This document shows positions 6,504-18,855 of a stretch of 22,251 bases of DNA, in pieces (within the stretch, counting starts at the first letter, position 1; each line of letters begins with the position of its first letter). The position numbers and the translations under genes were made by a program. The notes below the pieces were generated by a model, which searched no databases, was not told the DNA's origin, and saw only the letters and a list, made by a program, of their open reading frames with translations. This DNA is from a virus. The DNA lies in the IMG/VR virus record IMGVR_UViG_3300037185_000006, positions 1 to 22,251 of that record, one strand, 5' to 3'.

Positions 6504-6584
6504 TCTATCGTATTATCAACCACTTACGCATATTTTTATCGTATATTACCGCCAATAAAATCGCACAATTAAAAGTAATTGTTG

Positions 6585-6626
6585 AAAATCTCCCTGATAT
6601 GTATAATGTCGGGGAGATTTTGTTTT
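6585..6626 (+). terminator. Intrinsic terminator-like hairpin that also contains the ribosome site of the next gene
   Basis: AAAATCTCCC (6585-6594) pairs perfectly with GGGAGATTTT (6612-6621) around a 17-nt loop, and the 3' arm runs into TTTTGTTTTA. It lies about 80 nt after the tail tube stop and would end that transcript. The same 3' arm carries GGGGAGA (6611-6617), nine bases before the ATG at 6627, so the folded form hides the ribosome site of the HNH endonuclease gene. Confidence 0.7.
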
Positions 6627-7418
6627 ATGATTAAATGTGAAATAGATGAAAAAGAGTTTAAAAACGGCGGCGTATTAGCCAGATACCTAAAAGAAAAATA
6701 CTCTCTAACTTATAGAGAATATTACCACAAGTATATTGTAAAAACCGATGATATACCAAAATGTAAATGTGGTTGTGGTATAGAAATGAAATGGACCAAC
6801 GTAGGTTATAAAGACTACGCAAAGGGTCATTATAGTAGAGTAAAAAATAATTGGGGACATAATATTTCGGCCCAGTTAAAATCCGCAGAAACAAGGCGCC
6901 AACAGTATGCCAGTGGTGAGAGGGAAGTGTGGAATAAAGGACTTACTATAGATGACGAAAGGGTAAAAAATAATGGCGTATCCATATCAAATAGTTTTTC
7001 AGATGATAGAAAAAGTAGATATGCTACAATAATGAGTCAAAATAGAAAGAATGGTGTTGTGCCTACTCTCTTCGGTCCCGACTCTTCCCGTTGGAAAGGT
7101 GGTACATCCGAAGTCAATAACATAGCTCGCTCCAATAAACGTTTATACGATGAATGGAAATATCCTATTCTTATTAGAGACGGGTTCAAGTGTGTAGAGT
7201 GCGGTAATTCTAAAAAACTCCATATACATCACGACAAAGAAAAGTTTTGTGAGATTGTTGAAAAACATATGCCTGACCAAATTTTGATAACCGATTTTGA
7301 GTTAAAGAAATCCATAGCAGAAAAAATTGTAGATTATCACATCCAAAACAAAGTTTCCGGAATAACCCTCTGTGGTAAATGCCACGAAAAATATCATCCA
7401 TCATTGAATTTTGACTAA
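6627..7418 (+). CDS. Free-standing HNH homing endonuclease
   Basis: A 263-aa protein when started at ATG 6627; the longer frame opening with TTG at 6579 runs through the terminator hairpin and is unlikely. The C-terminal third is an HNH nuclease with a zinc site: FKCVECG (C189, C192), LHIHH (199-202 region) and LCGKCHEKYH (C249, C252, H253, H257). Just before it, GPDSSRWKGG (150-159) is a segment common in phage HNH endonucleases. The N-terminal part has another Cys cluster, KCKCGCG at 46-51, and a helical DNA-binding-like middle. Such enzymes cut a site in a related genome lacking the gene and spread by repair. The gene sits alone between tail tube and a nucleotidyltransferase gene, with no intron signs. 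Expression is probably restrained by the hairpin over its ribosome site. Confidence 0.85.
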   Translation: MIKCEIDEKEFKNGGVLARYLKEKYSLTYREYYHKYIVKTDDIPKCKCGCGIEMKWTNVGYKDYAKGHYSRVKNNWGHNISAQLKSAETRRQQYASGEREVWNKGLTIDDERVKNNGVSISNSFSDDRKSRYATIMSQNRKNGVVPTLFGPDSSRWKGGTSEVNNIARSNKRLYDEWKYPILIRDGFKCVECGNSKKLHIHHDKEKFCEIVEKHMPDQILITDFELKKSIAEKIVDYHIQNKVSGITLCGKCHEKYHPSLNFD

Positions 7419-7430: not shown

Positions 7431-8846
7431 ATGTGGACGTATAAAGAATCAAAACCTATAGCTGATAAGTTGAATGCTAGAATTGTTGGTTCTGTTAGAA
7501 CAAAAGGAAGTTCAAATCATGATTTGGATTTATTAGTTAAAGATTACACCACCAACATTAATGATTTTTTAGAATCTATGGGATATGAGTTTGTGGGTAG
7601 TCAGGTTGTATCACCACAGGAATTACGTTTATTGAGAAAATTTGGTGTGAGAAAATTTGGTAACAATGTAAATGTTTGGCTGAGAAATAGAAGATTTGAA
7701 AATTCAGAAACTAAAAAAGTCATAGAGATATGGAGTAGTGAAGGAATGAATGAAAAAATAAAAAAATCGCAACTAAAGAATTTGATGAAAGAAGTTGTGA
7801 AACGAACCCGCCTTTCACAACTGAAACCTATTAGAGAAAGTATAAGGAATAATGAGGGCGGCGAATGGATAGACCCCGGTGGTACAGTTCACGATATTGG
7901 ATACCAAACCCACACGGAATGGGCATCAGAGTATTTGAGGACTAGTGAGAGACGATTTAGTGACAATCCAAAAGATGAAATGTTAGGTCGTGGTTGGCTG
8001 AGAATTCGTTACAATCATGTATTTCTTCTAATAATTGCTGAATATAATAAAATACTTACAAGATATCAGAACGAACACGTTCAAGATTTGGCAGAGGATT
8101 TTGAATGGTTGGTTGTGGATGGTAAAATGAATCCTATTTACAAACCTTGGCGTTGTAAAACTCCAAACGCTCCAGAAGAAGTAATAACAGAAGTTACACA
8201 AAAAGACATCAAACAAAGATTGCCGGGTGTAAACGCTTGGGATATTAGAAAACAACAAAATCAACCAAATCAACCAACTCAACAAATTCCAAAACTACAC
8301 ATGATGACGTTGGATAATTTGAATGCACTAAGAACTAAACAAGGTAACATCATAAAGTATTTACAAAAACTACGCAAAGGAGAGCAAAGCGTTGGAGCAG
8401 AGTTAATCAAGGCATATAAGGATTATTTGATGTTTAGTGATGAAATAAAAAGACGGTCGAGATACATTAATAAGCCAGTAAAAGAGGACCACGGATTGGG
8501 ATATAGTCATAATTCTACAGATGATTATAGTAATGTCCCATTTGCTCGTGATACGTTGAATGACCCATTATTAAATGGTAAAATGAATGAAAGTTATAGA
8601 TTTGATGATTTTAAGTGGATGGGTAGTATGGATGGGTTCAGAGTCCCGTCAGATGTTTACGAAGGTGCCGTATATTTAGGTGTTATTGAATCATATGCTG
8701 ATAGATATGTAATAAAGGGTATAGCAGGTCCGCATAAAATGATTGATGCCAGTGATTTGCCGAGGAACAATTTTAAAACAAAGGACGACGCAGCAAAAAT
8801 GCTCCATCGTATATGGAAGTCATTAAGAACTGGAAAATATCCATGA
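7431..8846 (+). CDS. Pol-beta-type nucleotidyltransferase with shared WIDxxG domain and LKNLMKEV motif
   Basis: A 471-aa multi-domain protein. Residues 16-36 (ARIVGSVRTKGSSNHDLDLL) carry the Pol-beta signature GS at 20-21 and D31/D33; a third acid may be near 83-100 (NVWLRNRRF to VIEIW). Residues 106-124 (MNEKIKKSQLKNLMKEVVK) hold the recurring amphipathic motif, including an internal methionine in a sequence like the N-termini of the 866 and 3396 proteins. Residues 143-195 (GGEWIDPGGTVHDIGY ... GWLRIR) match the domain of the 1510 protein. A Gln/Pro/Asn-rich linker at 276-287 leads to a helical segment (290-350) and a small C-terminal domain (about 398-471). The gene ends in an ATGA overlap with the GIY-YIG gene. 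The enzyme's target is unknown; a virion-carried effector is a possibility, not shown. Confidence 0.65.
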   Translation: MWTYKESKPIADKLNARIVGSVRTKGSSNHDLDLLVKDYTTNINDFLESMGYEFVGSQVVSPQELRLLRKFGVRKFGNNVNVWLRNRRFENSETKKVIEIWSSEGMNEKIKKSQLKNLMKEVVKRTRLSQLKPIRESIRNNEGGEWIDPGGTVHDIGYQTHTEWASEYLRTSERRFSDNPKDEMLGRGWLRIRYNHVFLLIIAEYNKILTRYQNEHVQDLAEDFEWLVVDGKMNPIYKPWRCKTPNAPEEVITEVTQKDIKQRLPGVNAWDIRKQQNQPNQPTQQIPKLHMMTLDNLNALRTKQGNIIKYLQKLRKGEQSVGAELIKAYKDYLMFSDEIKRRSRYINKPVKEDHGLGYSHNSTDDYSNVPFARDTLNDPLLNGKMNESYRFDDFKWMGSMDGFRVPSDVYEGAVYLGVIESYADRYVIKGIAGPHKMIDASDLPRNNFKTKDDAAKMLHRIWKSLRTGKYP

Positions 8847-9586
8847 AAATATCTGGTATTTATAAAATAATTAATAGAACTAATGGTAAATATTATATTG
8901 GAAGTAGCAATAACATTAAAAGACGGTGGATTGATCACAAGAAAATGTTAAAAGGAAATAGGCATGATAATCAATATTTACAAAATGCTTGGAATAAATA
9001 TGGCGAAAATAGTTTTGATTTTGTAATTGAAAAAGAAATACCACAAAATAAATTAATAGAAGTAGAACAAAAATATTTTGATGATACACAATTAAAAGAT
9101 AAAATATATAATCTATCTTTTATCGCTAATAAAATAGAAATGACGGCGGAAATTAGAAAGAAAATTGGCGATGGTAATAGGGGAAAGATAAGAAGCGAAG
9201 AAACAAAGAAAAAATTAAGTAATATAAACAAAAAGAATAGAGATTTTTATATCAGTTGCGGAAGTAAAAGCCGTGGTAATTTAGGAAGGCATTTTTCTAA
9301 GGAATGGCGCAAAAAAATTGGTGATGGTAATAGAGGAAAAATAGTTTCGGAAGAAACAAAAAAGAAATTACATTATATTAATTTGGGAAAAAAATACTCC
9401 GAAGAAACAAAACAAAAAATGAGTAAATCCAGTAAAAAATTTTGGAAAAATTCTATAATTAGAAAATTACATGGGAGTAAAGTAAGTGAAGGATATAAAA
9501 ATATGAGTAAAGAAGATAGACAAAGACATAGAGATAATATTAAAAAATCTTGGGTATTAAGAAAACTTAAAAATTGGAAAGAATAA
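8843..9586 (+). CDS. Free-standing GIY-YIG homing endonuclease (Seg-like)
   Basis: A 247-aa protein from ATG 8843, which overlaps the previous stop by ATGA; a longer frame from 8813 would extend back into that gene and is less likely. The GIY-YIG catalytic domain is clear: GIY at 5-7, YIG at 18-20, R27 in IKRRW, and a Glu in LIEVEQKYFD (about 71-80). The C-terminal part has two nearly identical DNA-binding repeats of the NUMOD3 type, KKIGDGNRGKIRSEETKKKL at 106-125 and KKIGDGNRGKIVSEETKKKL at 157-176, then a degenerate third (YSEETKQKMSKSSKKFW). It is very Lys-rich and its DNA is more AT-rich than the structural genes, in line with separate ancestry. It stands between two enzyme genes with no intron signs. 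Confidence 0.88.
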   Translation: MKISGIYKIINRTNGKYYIGSSNNIKRRWIDHKKMLKGNRHDNQYLQNAWNKYGENSFDFVIEKEIPQNKLIEVEQKYFDDTQLKDKIYNLSFIANKIEMTAEIRKKIGDGNRGKIRSEETKKKLSNINKKNRDFYISCGSKSRGNLGRHFSKEWRKKIGDGNRGKIVSEETKKKLHYINLGKKYSEETKQKMSKSSKKFWKNSIIRKLHGSKVSEGYKNMSKEDRQRHRDNIKKSWVLRKLKNWKE

Positions 9587-14819: not shown

Positions 14820-17393
14820 ATGGCAACGATAAATACAACAGTGGTAAAGCTTTCGGAGTTTCCTCCAACTCTACCTAATATCCCGGCCAATTATCCATCA
14901 ACTCCGGTGCCGGGTAAAATACAGCTATTGTTCGATGCCAATGCGGAGTATCTTTATAGTAAGTTTAGTCCTTATACAAATTATCAAGCTAGTAACGTGT
15001 TTGGTGGCGTTCTATCCGACAAACAACCATTCATTTATACACAAATTGAAACTGGTCAAAACAACGTCAGGGGGTTCAATAGTTTGGCTGGGCAAATTCT
15101 TGATATTGCGAATATCAACACAGATACGGTTGATGATGCTGCCAGAATATCAAAGTTTTTGATTTCATCTTGGGGTGTAAGTTTTTTGGCGGCACAGTTA
15201 GCTATTCAAAGAACCGCTCCGTTTGACGAAACCAGAATTTACAATCCGTTATCGCCTTTATTGGCTACTGTTCAACCACTAACTCTTGGAATTGGAGAGG
15301 CTCCAACAAGACACATCGAACCTATTGGAAGTGGACTATTAGGCACTGCCCTTGGTGCGTTAAACTCACTTACATCAACCATTGGTATCAATTTACAAAA
15401 CGGATACTCAAAACCATCTAGCACGGCTGGCGATGAAACAGCATTACCTTCGACACAGACGGGTATTGCAGGAAGCCAAGGAAAAGGCATGATACGTGGT
15501 AGTGATGCACAGAAAGCTGCAACGTCATTACAATCGAAGTGGATTACATCAACCAATCAAGGTGGCCTTGGACTTGGTTCTTTGTTGAGTTCTGCCGTAA
15601 ACAATTTCGCAAGTTCTATAGCCGGTTCATTTCTATCATTCTTTGGTGGTGCTCCTAAAGCTAAAGGTATTTTTAGAACAGATGAAGGAACATACGTTCT
15701 GATGGCCGATTATTTTGGTAAACAAGGAATTACGGGCGTATCTGGTGTTACTGGTGGGGCAAAATCAAGTATAATCCAACCTTGGTATGCCTCACCTACA
15801 ACATATCCACAATCTCTTGATGCTTTTGGTATTCCATTACTTCGAAAAAACAAGTCAACTTTCGGTATTGTAGTTTCGACGGTCCCAGCACAATCTGATT
15901 TTTTCAAGAGTAAACTTCTTTCCACGCCAGATGGGTGGGAGGCCGTTGATACAAGTAATGGTCTATTAGGTTATTATGTTAGTAATAAGCCTACGGGAGT
16001 TCCAGTAGGAGACAATTACGGTGATGTTGTAGGTAGAGTCAACGGTGACGACCTTACCAATTCTGAAATGTTGGTTCAATACAGTCGTTATGTTCAGATA
16101 GACAACAATTACGCAACAAAGATAGTTGGTCCAAGTTCAGATACAGTCAAAGCAATACAGGCTGGTTTGGAAGCAGTAGTTGCTAATATAGGTAAAAGCG
16201 GTGTATATAATGCTACAGGTCAACTACAATCTTATCTGTTGTCAGACGGCGACCCGTCAGCGATTGGTTATGATAACCTTTACAATACAACTCCTACTTC
16301 AAGAACTGACCCAAAAACCAGCTACGGTGTAATAAAGGAATATCGTGATGGAGATTCAGAAGTTCCAAGTATTGATGCTGGTGTAAAAAGTGGTCAGGTT
16401 GGAAGTAATCTTAGAATGGCTACTACTTTTTATTCTGATGGTATTAATAGATTAGATGTATTAGGTAAAGATAAAAGTACACCTGATAATGTTTCATTTA
16501 ATTCTTCTTATCCTGATTGGATACAATGGGACCCATATAAAGACGATTTGATTGCTTTCTTCTTCTATGATGTTGTAAATGACACGTATATTCCATTTAG
16601 AGCTACGGTAAAAGCTATTTCGGAAGGTGCTACAGCGTTTTGGGATGAACTTCGTTTCATTGGTCGTGCTGACCAGCTTTATTCATACAACGGATTTAGT
16701 AGAACACTTACGTTCTCATTCAACATTGTAATTGGCTCTGTAATGGAATTGCTTCCAACTTGGAAGAAGATTAATTACATGGCTAGTTCTGTAAAACCAT
16801 CCAGTTATACAACTGGTCAAGGTATCAATCAGAAATTCAACCGATTTATAATTCCACCTATGTTTATGGTGACGATTGGTGATTTATACAAGTTTCAACC
16901 AATAGTCATAACATCTATCAACATTAACATTCCTGATGATGCTGCTTGGGAAACACTAAATGAAGATAATTCAAAATTAGGATGGAGTTATCTAAACGGT
17001 TTGATTACTTCTCCAAGTGTTGGTAAGAATTACGGACAACTTCCAAGAGAAGTTGAAATAGCTGTAGTTTGTAATTTACTTGAAAAAGAACGTGCTATTG
17101 TTGGTGGTTCTAACTTTGGCCACGAACCAAGGGTTGATGATTGGGAGAGTAAGTCTGGTGATGATAGGTTCCTATCCAATGGTGATGTTTCGTTCTTGCC
17201 ACAACCCACTACATTACACAAAGGAATGACACAGTTTAACGCTCCCGGTCAGTCAATAGCTCCACAACCAGTTTCAGCACCATCTGCACCTGCTACAGTT
17301 ACTACACCACCAGCAGTAGCTACACCTGCCATTTCAAATCCAAGGATAAACCGTGGTGGTCAAACATTTAACGGTACTCCGGGAGTAGGATAA
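14820..17393 (+). CDS. Large baseplate protein, probable tail-tube cap/initiator (gp48/gp54-like)
   Basis: An 857-aa protein. The N-terminal half (about 1-470) is Gly/Ser/Thr-rich with hydrophobic stretches (SLLSSAVNNFASSIAGSFLS) and no known motif. The C-terminal part carries the informative block: PFRATVKAISEGATAFWDEL (from about 591), FIGRADQLYSYNGFSRTLTF (to about 633), ELLPTWKKINYMASSVKP (643-660), then a FIIPPMFMVTIGDLYKFQP region (about 678-696). That pattern recalls the tube-like domain of T4-type baseplate cap proteins, and the place after the tape measure agrees with the T4 order 29-48-54. The last 60 residues are Pro/Ala/Thr-rich and probably flexible. No ribosome site precedes the ATG, which follows nine bases after the tape measure stop. 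The exact T4 counterpart is uncertain. Confidence 0.6.
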   Translation: MATINTTVVKLSEFPPTLPNIPANYPSTPVPGKIQLLFDANAEYLYSKFSPYTNYQASNVFGGVLSDKQPFIYTQIETGQNNVRGFNSLAGQILDIANINTDTVDDAARISKFLISSWGVSFLAAQLAIQRTAPFDETRIYNPLSPLLATVQPLTLGIGEAPTRHIEPIGSGLLGTALGALNSLTSTIGINLQNGYSKPSSTAGDETALPSTQTGIAGSQGKGMIRGSDAQKAATSLQSKWITSTNQGGLGLGSLLSSAVNNFASSIAGSFLSFFGGAPKAKGIFRTDEGTYVLMADYFGKQGITGVSGVTGGAKSSIIQPWYASPTTYPQSLDAFGIPLLRKNKSTFGIVVSTVPAQSDFFKSKLLSTPDGWEAVDTSNGLLGYYVSNKPTGVPVGDNYGDVVGRVNGDDLTNSEMLVQYSRYVQIDNNYATKIVGPSSDTVKAIQAGLEAVVANIGKSGVYNATGQLQSYLLSDGDPSAIGYDNLYNTTPTSRTDPKTSYGVIKEYRDGDSEVPSIDAGVKSGQVGSNLRMATTFYSDGINRLDVLGKDKSTPDNVSFNSSYPDWIQWDPYKDDLIAFFFYDVVNDTYIPFRATVKAISEGATAFWDELRFIGRADQLYSYNGFSRTLTFSFNIVIGSVMELLPTWKKINYMASSVKPSSYTTGQGINQKFNRFIIPPMFMVTIGDLYKFQPIVITSININIPDDAAWETLNEDNSKLGWSYLNGLITSPSVGKNYGQLPREVEIAVVCNLLEKERAIVGGSNFGHEPRVDDWESKSGDDRFLSNGDVSFLPQPTTLHKGMTQFNAPGQSIAPQPVSAPSAPATVTTPPAVATPAISNPRINRGGQTFNGTPGVG

Positions 17394-17403
17394 ATGTCAA
17401 CTA

Positions 17404-17426
17404 CATCTACCCTAAAGGGATAGATG
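17404..17426. repeat. Left subterminal imperfect hairpin of the IS605-like element
   Basis: CATCTA (17404-17409) and CCC (17410-17412) pair with GGG (17417-17419) and TAGATG (17421-17426), with loop TAAA and one unpaired A at 17420. The geometry equals that of the hairpin at 17747-17769, while the stem sequence differs. Confidence 0.65.
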
Positions 17427-17546
17427 CTTGCCCGGCTCTAATGCTTATGCTTAACACAACTCAAAAAAGACTTATAGACAATTGGCTCATTGACCGGAGC
17501 CTGCCTTCCAGCTTATCTTTAACAGATAACGAGGAGGATGTTGATT

Positions 17547-17792
17547 GTGAGTCAAAGCCACATAACTGTTGCTCCAATGTATGGAGTGCCTTCTTGGCTA
17601 TCACAAAACGATGCTTTCTGGGTTTTACTGGGTGGAAGCAAATTATTTTGTCCATCCAAACCATATACCAAAGAACTATACCAAATATATACTATGTTAA
17701 CAAACAAATCAACTTATTATATTAGAAAGAAATGGTCGGAATTCCTCCACGAGGCTAAAGCCGTCGTGGTTTCCTTCCTCCAAAATATATGA
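17547..17792 (+). CDS. Possible small protein with strong ribosome site, overlapping the right-end hairpin
   Basis: An 81-residue frame from GTG 17547 has the best Shine-Dalgarno of the window, GAGGAGG at 17531-17537, nine bases ahead, and ends in an ATGA overlap with the next gene, like other genes here. An ATG at 17538 is too close to the Shine-Dalgarno. The product includes GVPSWLSQNDAFWVLLGGSK and a C-terminal helix RKKWSEFLHEAKAVVVSFL; I recognise no family. Against it: its last third coincides with the IS605-like hairpin, and overlapping frames are also open. It could be a real phage gene, a cargo gene of the element, or chance. Confidence 0.35.
   Translation: MSQSHITVAPMYGVPSWLSQNDAFWVLLGGSKLFCPSKPYTKELYQIYTMLTNKSTYYIRKKWSEFLHEAKAVVVSFLQNI
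17747..17769 (+). repeat. Right subterminal imperfect hairpin, omega-RNA-like 3' end
   Basis: CCACGA (17747-17752) and GGC (17753-17755) pair with GCC (17760-17762) and TCGTGG (17764-17769), loop TAAA, one unpaired G at 17763. It is preceded by GGAATTCCT and followed by TTTCCTTCC. In TnpB systems the guide begins shortly after such a hairpin, which here would read into the start of the 17789 gene. Confidence 0.6.
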
Positions 17793-18088
17793 AAAGATAT
17801 AATACAACACAGATTACTCCAAGATGGGATGGTAAGAAGGTTTATAGAACTACTTTATATCCTATCATAGAACCACAAAATGGCGATGCTATTGTTATAT
17901 CCAGTGATGCTGACTATTTGGATAGTTTGGCTTATAAGTATTACAACGACCCTACCTTGTGGTGGGTTATAGCATTGGCTAATAATCTTGGTAAAGGAAG
18001 AATGAGTGTCCCTCCCGGCCTTCAACTAAGAATACCAGCAAATATCAATGCAATTTTGGTTCAATTTAATAATCTGAATTTACAATAA
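17789..18088 (+). CDS. 53: LysM-like baseplate wedge protein (gp53 type)
   Basis: A 99-aa protein with a LysM-type fold signature: DYLDSLAYKYYNDPTLWWVI at about 42-61, then ALANNLGKGRMSVPPGLQLRIP (62-83 in outline). This pattern, with WWVIALAN and a Pro-rich turn before the last strand, matches the LysM-like domain of gp53-type baseplate wedge proteins, which help join wedges into the hexagonal baseplate. It is shorter than T4 gp53 (196 aa), so it may consist mainly of that domain. No ribosome site is seen in front of ATG 17789; translation may be coupled to the small frame upstream through the ATGA overlap. Confidence 0.7.
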   Translation: MKRYNTTQITPRWDGKKVYRTTLYPIIEPQNGDAIVISSDADYLDSLAYKYYNDPTLWWVIALANNLGKGRMSVPPGLQLRIPANINAILVQFNNLNLQ

Positions 18089-18105: not shown

Positions 18106-18855
18106 ATGCCTATAATGTACCATAATGATATAAATATTTGGAAAAAGAATTGTCCCAAGTGCGGGGGAGAGCAGACGTATTGTTGTAAGAGTATTTATAT
18201 TAAATCGTTGAAGAAAAATAGTGTATGTATTAAATGTACTCAAAAGTTGCAAAGAACACATAATACTGATGTTTTGGAGAAAATTTGTAGATGTGGTGAA
18301 AAACAAATATACACAGATAGAAAAGTATTTAATAGATCAGTTAAAGGAAATTGGTTATGCAAAAAATGTGCTACTAAGATTAGTGCAAAAATTATAGATA
18401 GGTCTTTTCAAAGAACAGACAAGTATATTAAAAAAATGAGTTCAAAACTTAAAAATGCTTGGAAAAGATCTAAAAATTATGGGTCAGAATTACATAGAGA
18501 AAGATTGAGGGAAGCAAAATTAAATCAAATAAAAAAATTGGGAACTATAAATAATTACAATCTATCTGCTTGTAAATTTATAGATGATTTAAATAAAAAG
18601 TTTGGTTGGAGTTTACAACATGCGTTAAATGGTGGGGAGGTTGTAGTAACAGGATATTGTTTAGATGGTTATGATAGAGAAAAAAATATTGTATTTGAGT
18701 ATGATGAATCCAGACATAATGCTCCAAGTAAAAAATCTTTTGATTTAAAGAGGCAAAATAGGATAATAGATAAAATACATCCTACAATGTTTATTAGATA
18801 TAATGAACGTTTCAATACACTTAAAGATGTAATTAGCAACAAGGAGATTTTATAA
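18106..18855 (+). CDS. Putative homing endonuclease, Vsr/EDxHD-like, with two zinc clusters
   Basis: A 249-aa protein. Two four-Cys clusters at the N-terminus, CPKC (16-19) with CIKC (41-44), and CRC (61-63) with CKKC (85-88), look like paired zinc ribbons for DNA binding. A Lys/Arg-rich helical linker (about 90-150) follows. The C-terminal domain holds GYCLDGYDREKNIVFEYDES (183-202), then H204 and FDLKRQNRIIDKI (212-224), ending FIRYNE. The spacing of D, E198, D200, H204 and D213 is like the EDxHD homing nucleases related to Vsr, as far as I can judge by eye. The gene is very AT-rich, and stands free between two baseplate genes. Its last bases contain the AAGGAG ribosome site of the next gene, so it is neatly inserted. 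Confidence 0.65.
   Translation: MPIMYHNDINIWKKNCPKCGGEQTYCCKSIYIKSLKKNSVCIKCTQKLQRTHNTDVLEKICRCGEKQIYTDRKVFNRSVKGNWLCKKCATKISAKIIDRSFQRTDKYIKKMSSKLKNAWKRSKNYGSELHRERLREAKLNQIKKLGTINNYNLSACKFIDDLNKKFGWSLQHALNGGEVVVTGYCLDGYDREKNIVFEYDESRHNAPSKKSFDLKRQNRIIDKIHPTMFIRYNERFNTLKDVISNKEIL

Follow-up and report, generated by a model that had tools for sequence, protein, structure and literature searches.

The window, by which we mean the whole 22,251-nt stretch of viral DNA analysed here, includes part of a tail operon in which the gene for an 857-residue protein is followed by a 393-nt stretch and then by a gp53-like baseplate wedge gene (Table 1). Two 23-nt hairpins lie in this stretch, reading CATCTACCCTAAAGGGATAGATG (17404-17426) and CCACGAGGCTAAAGCCGTCGTGG (17747-17769) on the + strand, where both have 6 bp, 3 bp, a TAAA loop and a 1-nt bulge on the 3' side; read on the minus strand, which is that of the element described below, they show a TTTA loop and a bulge on the 5' side. 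A scan of all 22,251 nt with the loop left free matched this geometry at these two places only; 20 Markov simulations put the chance level at 0.25 per window when any loop is allowed and at 0 when the loop is TAAA. The twin hairpins of one design noticed in a first, sequence-only reading are therefore real and the sole pair of their kind in the window, and the flanking motifs it gave, GGAATTCCTCC...TTTCCTTCC, were located as well. The spacer also folds more stably than its shuffled versions (z -3.06). Conservation of the shape, as claimed in that reading, is true only in part: the hairpin at the end that we call RE is still 23 nt long in other short copies of the element, although the position of its bulge is shifted there (CCCCGACCCTTCAGGGTCGCGGG).

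Table 1. Features of the tail-operon locus, in window coordinates
Feature	Position	Strand	Remark
Upstream tail-operon gene (857 aa)	14820..17393	+	stop codon TAA 2 nt from the element
Whole non-autonomous element	17396..17788	-	393 nt; TTCAT at right, stop of the upstream gene at left
Predicted guide segment ATTTATCCTACTCCCGGAGT	17376..17395	-	antisense to 3' end of upstream gene; inferred from ISDra2
RE terminus TTGAC	17396..17400	-	cleavage-site pentanucleotide; last bases of scaffold
RE subterminal hairpin CATCTATCCCTTTAGGGTAGATG	17404..17426	-	covarying helix 4 of the RE-end RNA alignment
Conserved structured RNA, about 282 nt	17396..17677	-	3' half is the omega-RNA scaffold
Omega-RNA stem GGCTC-CGGTCAAT-GAGCC	17484..17501	-	helix 2; 100% paired across the 27 copies, changes compensated
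GTCAA loop	17490..17494	-	complementary to terminal TTGAC; candidate pseudoknot partner at -99 to -95 relative to guide junction
Small hairpin TTATCT-GTTAA-AGATAA	17513..17529	-	helix 10; covaries between copies (TTATCC/GGATAA, TTGCCC/GGGCAA)
Promoter-like TTGATT-17-TATATT	17684..17712	-	consensus match, of a quality expected by chance
LE subterminal hairpin CCACGACGGCTTTAGCCTCGTGG	17747..17769	-	from hairpin geometry and comparison with TnpB loci
Target/TAM pentanucleotide TTCAT	17789..17793	-	precedes LE; same 5 nt in 31 distinct elements
gp53-like baseplate wedge gene (99 aa)	17789..18088	+	phrog_7145, E 7e-8; directly downstream of the element

The gp53-like protein has 52 relatives in viral contigs, and where these are 75-82% identical to it the gene order up857, gp53, dn904 is maintained. 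In most of those relatives the gp53 gene begins, as ATGAAAAGATAYGA, a few nucleotides past the upstream stop codon, and in none of them is the 393-nt insert found. Uninterrupted junctions read GGCTTAATTT-ATGAAAAG (L088) and GCGTAATT-ATGAAAAG (L087), and joining the flanks in the window gives GGATAAAT-ATGAAAAG. Judged by this synteny, which displays the empty site, the 393-nt stretch is an insertion into the tail operon. A comparison with relatives free of the insert had been suggested at the outset, together with the counter-case that they might share the spacer without its hairpins; the outcome was the opposite, an uninterrupted operon without any spacer. The exact 19-mer of the empty site was not found in viral contigs, and the joined flanks of ten elements gave no junction-spanning match in 19 phage records. 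Other genes of the region can be noted here. A 249-residue zinc-ribbon-like gene (18106-18855), resembling Lak phage proteins, lies at the next junction along, between gp53 and the 904-residue gene, and is optional, being present in some relatives only (L096, L097). A GIY-YIG endonuclease with a NUMOD3 motif (8813-9586) and an HNH endonuclease-like gene (6579-7418) also lie in the tail region.

The polarity of the insertion follows from elements that encode a protein. A pattern based on the right hairpin retrieved one phage contig with the same ends around a TnpB gene (PF07282, E 5e-13), and a search with that TnpB yielded 16 loci in phage contigs. When these are aligned by TnpB, nearly all have TTCAT and the LE hairpin block upstream of the gene, and the scaffold, a hairpin and TTGAC downstream. 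This order places the window element on the minus strand, so that the right hairpin is LE and the left one RE, the reverse of the initial assignment of the right hairpin to the right end; at the right of the element TTCAT is followed by GGAGGAAGGAAACC-hairpin-GGAGGAATTCCGACC. TTGAC stands at the RE of 15 of the 16 loci, all picked by TnpB protein alone, and its presence in 27/27 RE-end copies is circular, because TTGAC was used to pick them. The 393-nt limits are based on four complete copies (393-397 nt), which follow the same boundary rules in different flanks, and the flanks of the element copies contain no target duplication. On the evidence of its ends, its TTCAT target and the uninterrupted operon in relatives, the window element is a non-autonomous IS200/IS605-type insertion of 393 nt without protein genes, which upholds the earlier suggestion of an IS605-like insertion lacking tnpA and tnpB. 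Hairpins, a fixed target and a fixed RE terminus are those of the IS200/IS605 family; a Y1 TnpA of its own is absent, and the element is for this reason classed solely as a non-autonomous derivative.

On the + strand TTCAT reads ATGAA and contains the start codon of the gp53-like gene. This appears to be a general rule of insertion, as 26 of the 31 TTCAT-preceded elements have an opposite-strand ATGAA that opens a reading frame of at least 40 residues, against a background of 31% in the same DNA (p = 1e-9, which is overstated, as some copies are related). The placement at start codons is likely due to selection, noncoding TTCATs in dense phage genomes being mostly start codons. Because TTCAT is ATGAA on the other strand, the elements land before start codons and seldom break genes.

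The family to which the insertion belongs emerged from a pattern search of viral contigs for the scaffold core, which matched 34 stretches. Beside TnpB elements, these include a distinct group of short elements, 393-397 nt long. Two near-identical ones occupy two sites of one record, 3300025162_000043 (L022 and L044), another is in 3300025162_000041 (L025, with L041 the same insertion), and two end at a contig edge (L032, and L074 in G002). The copies in L022, L044, L025 and L032 have different flanks and lie at unrelated sites, and the window copy is 80% identical to the other short copies. Two further elements, L070 and L071, agree with the short element in the first ~190 nt and in the final 40 nt but have a different scaffold core, the same 5' module (LE, promoter region and first ~80 nt of the RNA) standing on another omega-RNA core, as in a modular exchange. 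In L079, a standalone element of a 303-kb phage, about 50 nt of the LE are identical to the LE of the window; its 274-nt body encodes no TnpB, and it has a TTGACA-17-TATAGT match. There are also elements that consist of ends without an omega-RNA, of 68 nt (L072/L073) and about 115 nt (L138, in G027, a 251-kb relative).

Several neighbouring observations extend this picture. A TnpB-less element (L076, G003:22.0-22.7 kb) has TTGACA-17-TATTTT and a CACTCCGTTTACGGAG hairpin resembling that of the short family. Mini-elements of 143 nt in contig 3300050010_000571 (L040:6169-6311 and L050) have TTCAT followed by omega-RNA and RE, with no LE hairpin; their left boundary is the same at two sites, so that they are either mobile without LE or the product of repeated deletion. 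The L040 mini-element seemed to split a tRNA (CTTCATACC...GGTTCGATTCC, anticodon/T-loop-like), an idea dropped when ARAGORN reported no tRNA in the joined flanks. An exact 18-19-mer of the invariant block returned, from viral contigs, the known copies and one chance match (L056) and, from bacterial genomes, two chance matches within unrelated sequence. L057 is a Bacteroides MAG, and among 395 genomes of its phylum model R1 had one weak match. No DNA match turned up in reference collections of plasmids and phages, and Rfam had none for the hairpin region.

What is conserved in the element is an RNA. We aligned 27 RE-end RNAs, 22 of them from TnpB-type copies, in which 90.9% of cells in four stems are paired and 20/27 pairs show double-sided changes. 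The covariation score is 0.54, against 0.19 when shuffled (0/500 shuffles) and 0.04-0.13 in slid controls, where pairing reached at most 49%. In the GGCTC/GAGCC stem two positions have four pair types each. As helix 1 overlaps the tnpB coding sequence in TnpB copies, the stems 3' of the gene provide the less ambiguous evidence. GTCAA and TTGAC are complementary in all copies and invariant, hence without a covariation signal. In the five short copies alone, double-sided pair changes number 10, versus 2.4 expected. The window copy, found in the overlapping record G007, scores 118.6 bits with model R1, in whose training set it was included. Upstream of the RNA, copy L022 has TTGACA-17-TATACA at the same offset as the promoter-like match in the window.

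Protein-coding explanations were pursued in both directions. The element contains no conserved reading frame, the frames of both strands being broken among copies. A 67-residue minus-strand frame (17461-17664) has relatives at 56-60%, yet indels shift it among copies, and we rejected it as a protein. On the + strand, the hairpins might instead be regulatory or terminator structures of the tail operon itself, or the stretch might encode a small protein (17538-17792), given an 84-residue frame with GAGGAGG 5' of it and a TGA overlapping the gp53 ATG. Since the stretch is absent from the operon in relatives, and the frame runs for only 9-33 codons in other copies and matches nothing in Pfam or PHROG, we regard this as close to negligible; a conserved protein over 17547-17792, envisaged earlier as evidence against an insertion, is likewise not seen. 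With GAGGAGG just 5' of its ATG and its TGA at the gp53 start, the 84-residue frame could restore translational coupling to gp53 by chance. Taken together, comparison among copies indicates that the element carries an RNA with a TnpB omega-RNA scaffold in its 3' half, and not a protein; the omega-RNA suspected from the start is borne out by scaffold covariation shared with TnpB-type copies.

With the polarity reversed, the predicted guide changes too. It is not the start of the gp53-type gene, as had been thought, and would instead be the reverse complement of the bases immediately preceding the element, at the 3' end of the 857-residue gene (5'-AUUUAUCCUACUCCCGGAGU-3'). A guide antisense to a structural gene might suggest a domesticated, TldR-like regulatory RNA aimed at the tail gene. 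We consider this highly improbable, because the guide is in each copy the landing flank, which fits homing and leaves no conserved target, and because the TnpBs of the set retain their nuclease motifs, where TldR-like systems have a conserved guide and a nuclease-dead TnpB; the first RuvC Asp motif was found in 15/15 TnpBs inspected.

As for helper proteins, the earlier statement that neither tnpA nor tnpB is present held for the element and in our scans of the window. No TnpB domain was found in the 22-kb window or in ten closer relatives of its phage, among them records of 365 kb and 251 kb. The overlapping record G007 contains no TnpA, and no large ORF that was scanned resembles TnpA. A TnpB acting on the element would thus be encoded elsewhere, either in the rest of the genome or by a different phage or the host. 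The records with short copies have one (G001), three (G002) and two (G003) TnpBs, and large relatives have many more, of several subfamilies: 15 matches to PF07282 in the L019 record (G005, 368,758 bp) and 11 in the L007 record (G004, 303,564 bp). The gp53-like proteins of G004, G005 and G009 are 51-57% identical to that of the window, which makes these phages distantly related to that of the window. Three records contain Y1 TnpA genes. Two loci are ordered LE, divergent tnpA, tnpB, RE, one with the LE class of the window (L059) and one with that of the other short copies (L085), and the ends and target of the window element match those of TnpB and tnpA-tnpB elements of related jumbo phages. 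In a 353,772-bp phage, one TnpB (L008) has intact catalytic motifs and no recognisable LE or RE hairpins, and is possibly immobile.

On the basis of these results, the element is very probably a PATE-like satellite of the IS200/IS605 family that has lost tnpA and tnpB and retained LE, RE and an omega-RNA gene. In our analysis it most likely moves by means of a TnpA acting in trans and provides TnpB with a guide derived from the end of the upstream gene. A Y1 TnpA from elsewhere would, by analogy with ISDra2, peel the element and paste it 3' of TTCAT. Leftward transcription into the flank, probably from an internal promoter, would give an omega-RNA with a guide of 16-20 nt, to be loaded by a TnpB from another element of the same phage, a co-infecting phage or the host. 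The loaded TnpB would cut TTCAT plus guide (TTCAT-ATTTATCCTACTCCCGG), which is the empty version of the tail-operon junction, and the occupied copy could then serve as repair template, so that the element is restored or spread.

Two other accounts share much of this outline. According to the first, TnpA acts in trans through the two hairpins and the omega-RNA is an unused passenger left from a lost tnpB. The elements without omega-RNA in the same phages indicate that ends alone can be mobilised, and Halanaerobium offers a precedent in a PATE-like element in which LE and RE enclose the last 58 nt of tnpB (PMC7290912). Compensated scaffold changes inside the short family and a common 5' module on two omega-RNA cores argue that the RNA is selected, and we hold this account to be rather unlikely. 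The second account, a formerly mobile relic fixed in the operon and decaying, seems distinctly improbable: only one copy was seen for the window phage, no helper gene was seen and divergence from other copies is 20%, but the hairpins are perfect, TTCAT and TTGAC are intact, the omega-RNA stems are intact with compensated changes, and the LE is identical over about 50 nt to that of an element in another phage. Within the satellite interpretation, the window copy itself may be old and now immobile, given its 80% identity to the others. Whether jumbo phages harbour a whole class of such 'guide-only' satellites, with a promoter and omega-RNA gene between the ends and interchangeable cores, which use the TnpA and TnpB of others and occupy the sites of competitors, we see as evenly balanced.

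One of the closest known systems is ISDra2, which also has subterminal hairpins, makes no target duplication and produces an RNA from its 3' part and RE that continues into the flank, the last ~16 nt serving as guide (PMC8612924). Both insert 3' of a pentanucleotide, TTGAT in ISDra2 and TTCAT here, and the loop of the scaffold stem is placed where ISDra2 has its pseudoknot partner (-106 to -102; PMC10097598). Unlike ISDra2, the window element lacks tnpA and tnpB, and a 5' RNA module of its own replaces the tnpB coding region. The jumbo-phage TnpB elements (L004-L019, L059, L085) share its LE classes, its RE and the core GGCAGGC-N4-GTCAA-N3-GCC, and differ in encoding TnpB, and in some cases TnpA, over about 1.3-2.6 kb.

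With PATEs the element shares an IS605 LE and RE around a remnant, no protein gene and presumed mobilisation in trans (PMC7290912), the last indicated by two near-identical copies at different sites of one phage record and calling for a putative trans-acting transposase. In contrast to the Halanaerobium element, the window type is found at several unrelated sites, keeps its omega-RNA with compensatory changes and has a conserved 5' module, without recognised similarity to tnpB, on two scaffold types. The literature we searched, which did not take in Altae-Tran 2021/2023 or Meers 2023, contained no multi-copy TnpB-less phage elements with a conserved guide-RNA gene. Altae-Tran and colleagues are said to have described, in 2021, standalone omega-RNA loci of OMEGA systems in a cellular genome; there too the guide RNA is apart from the nuclease, whereas the window type consists of complete transposable elements in phages. 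Cas12 descends from TnpB, whose guided cutting is generally taken to serve, in nature, to keep the transposon at its site. Jumbo phages that combine 6-15 TnpBs with several guide-only elements would provide a natural test of RNA-guided homing and phage competition and, if the guide-only interpretation is true, the retention service of TnpB would be parasitised in trans, just as MITEs parasitise transposases.
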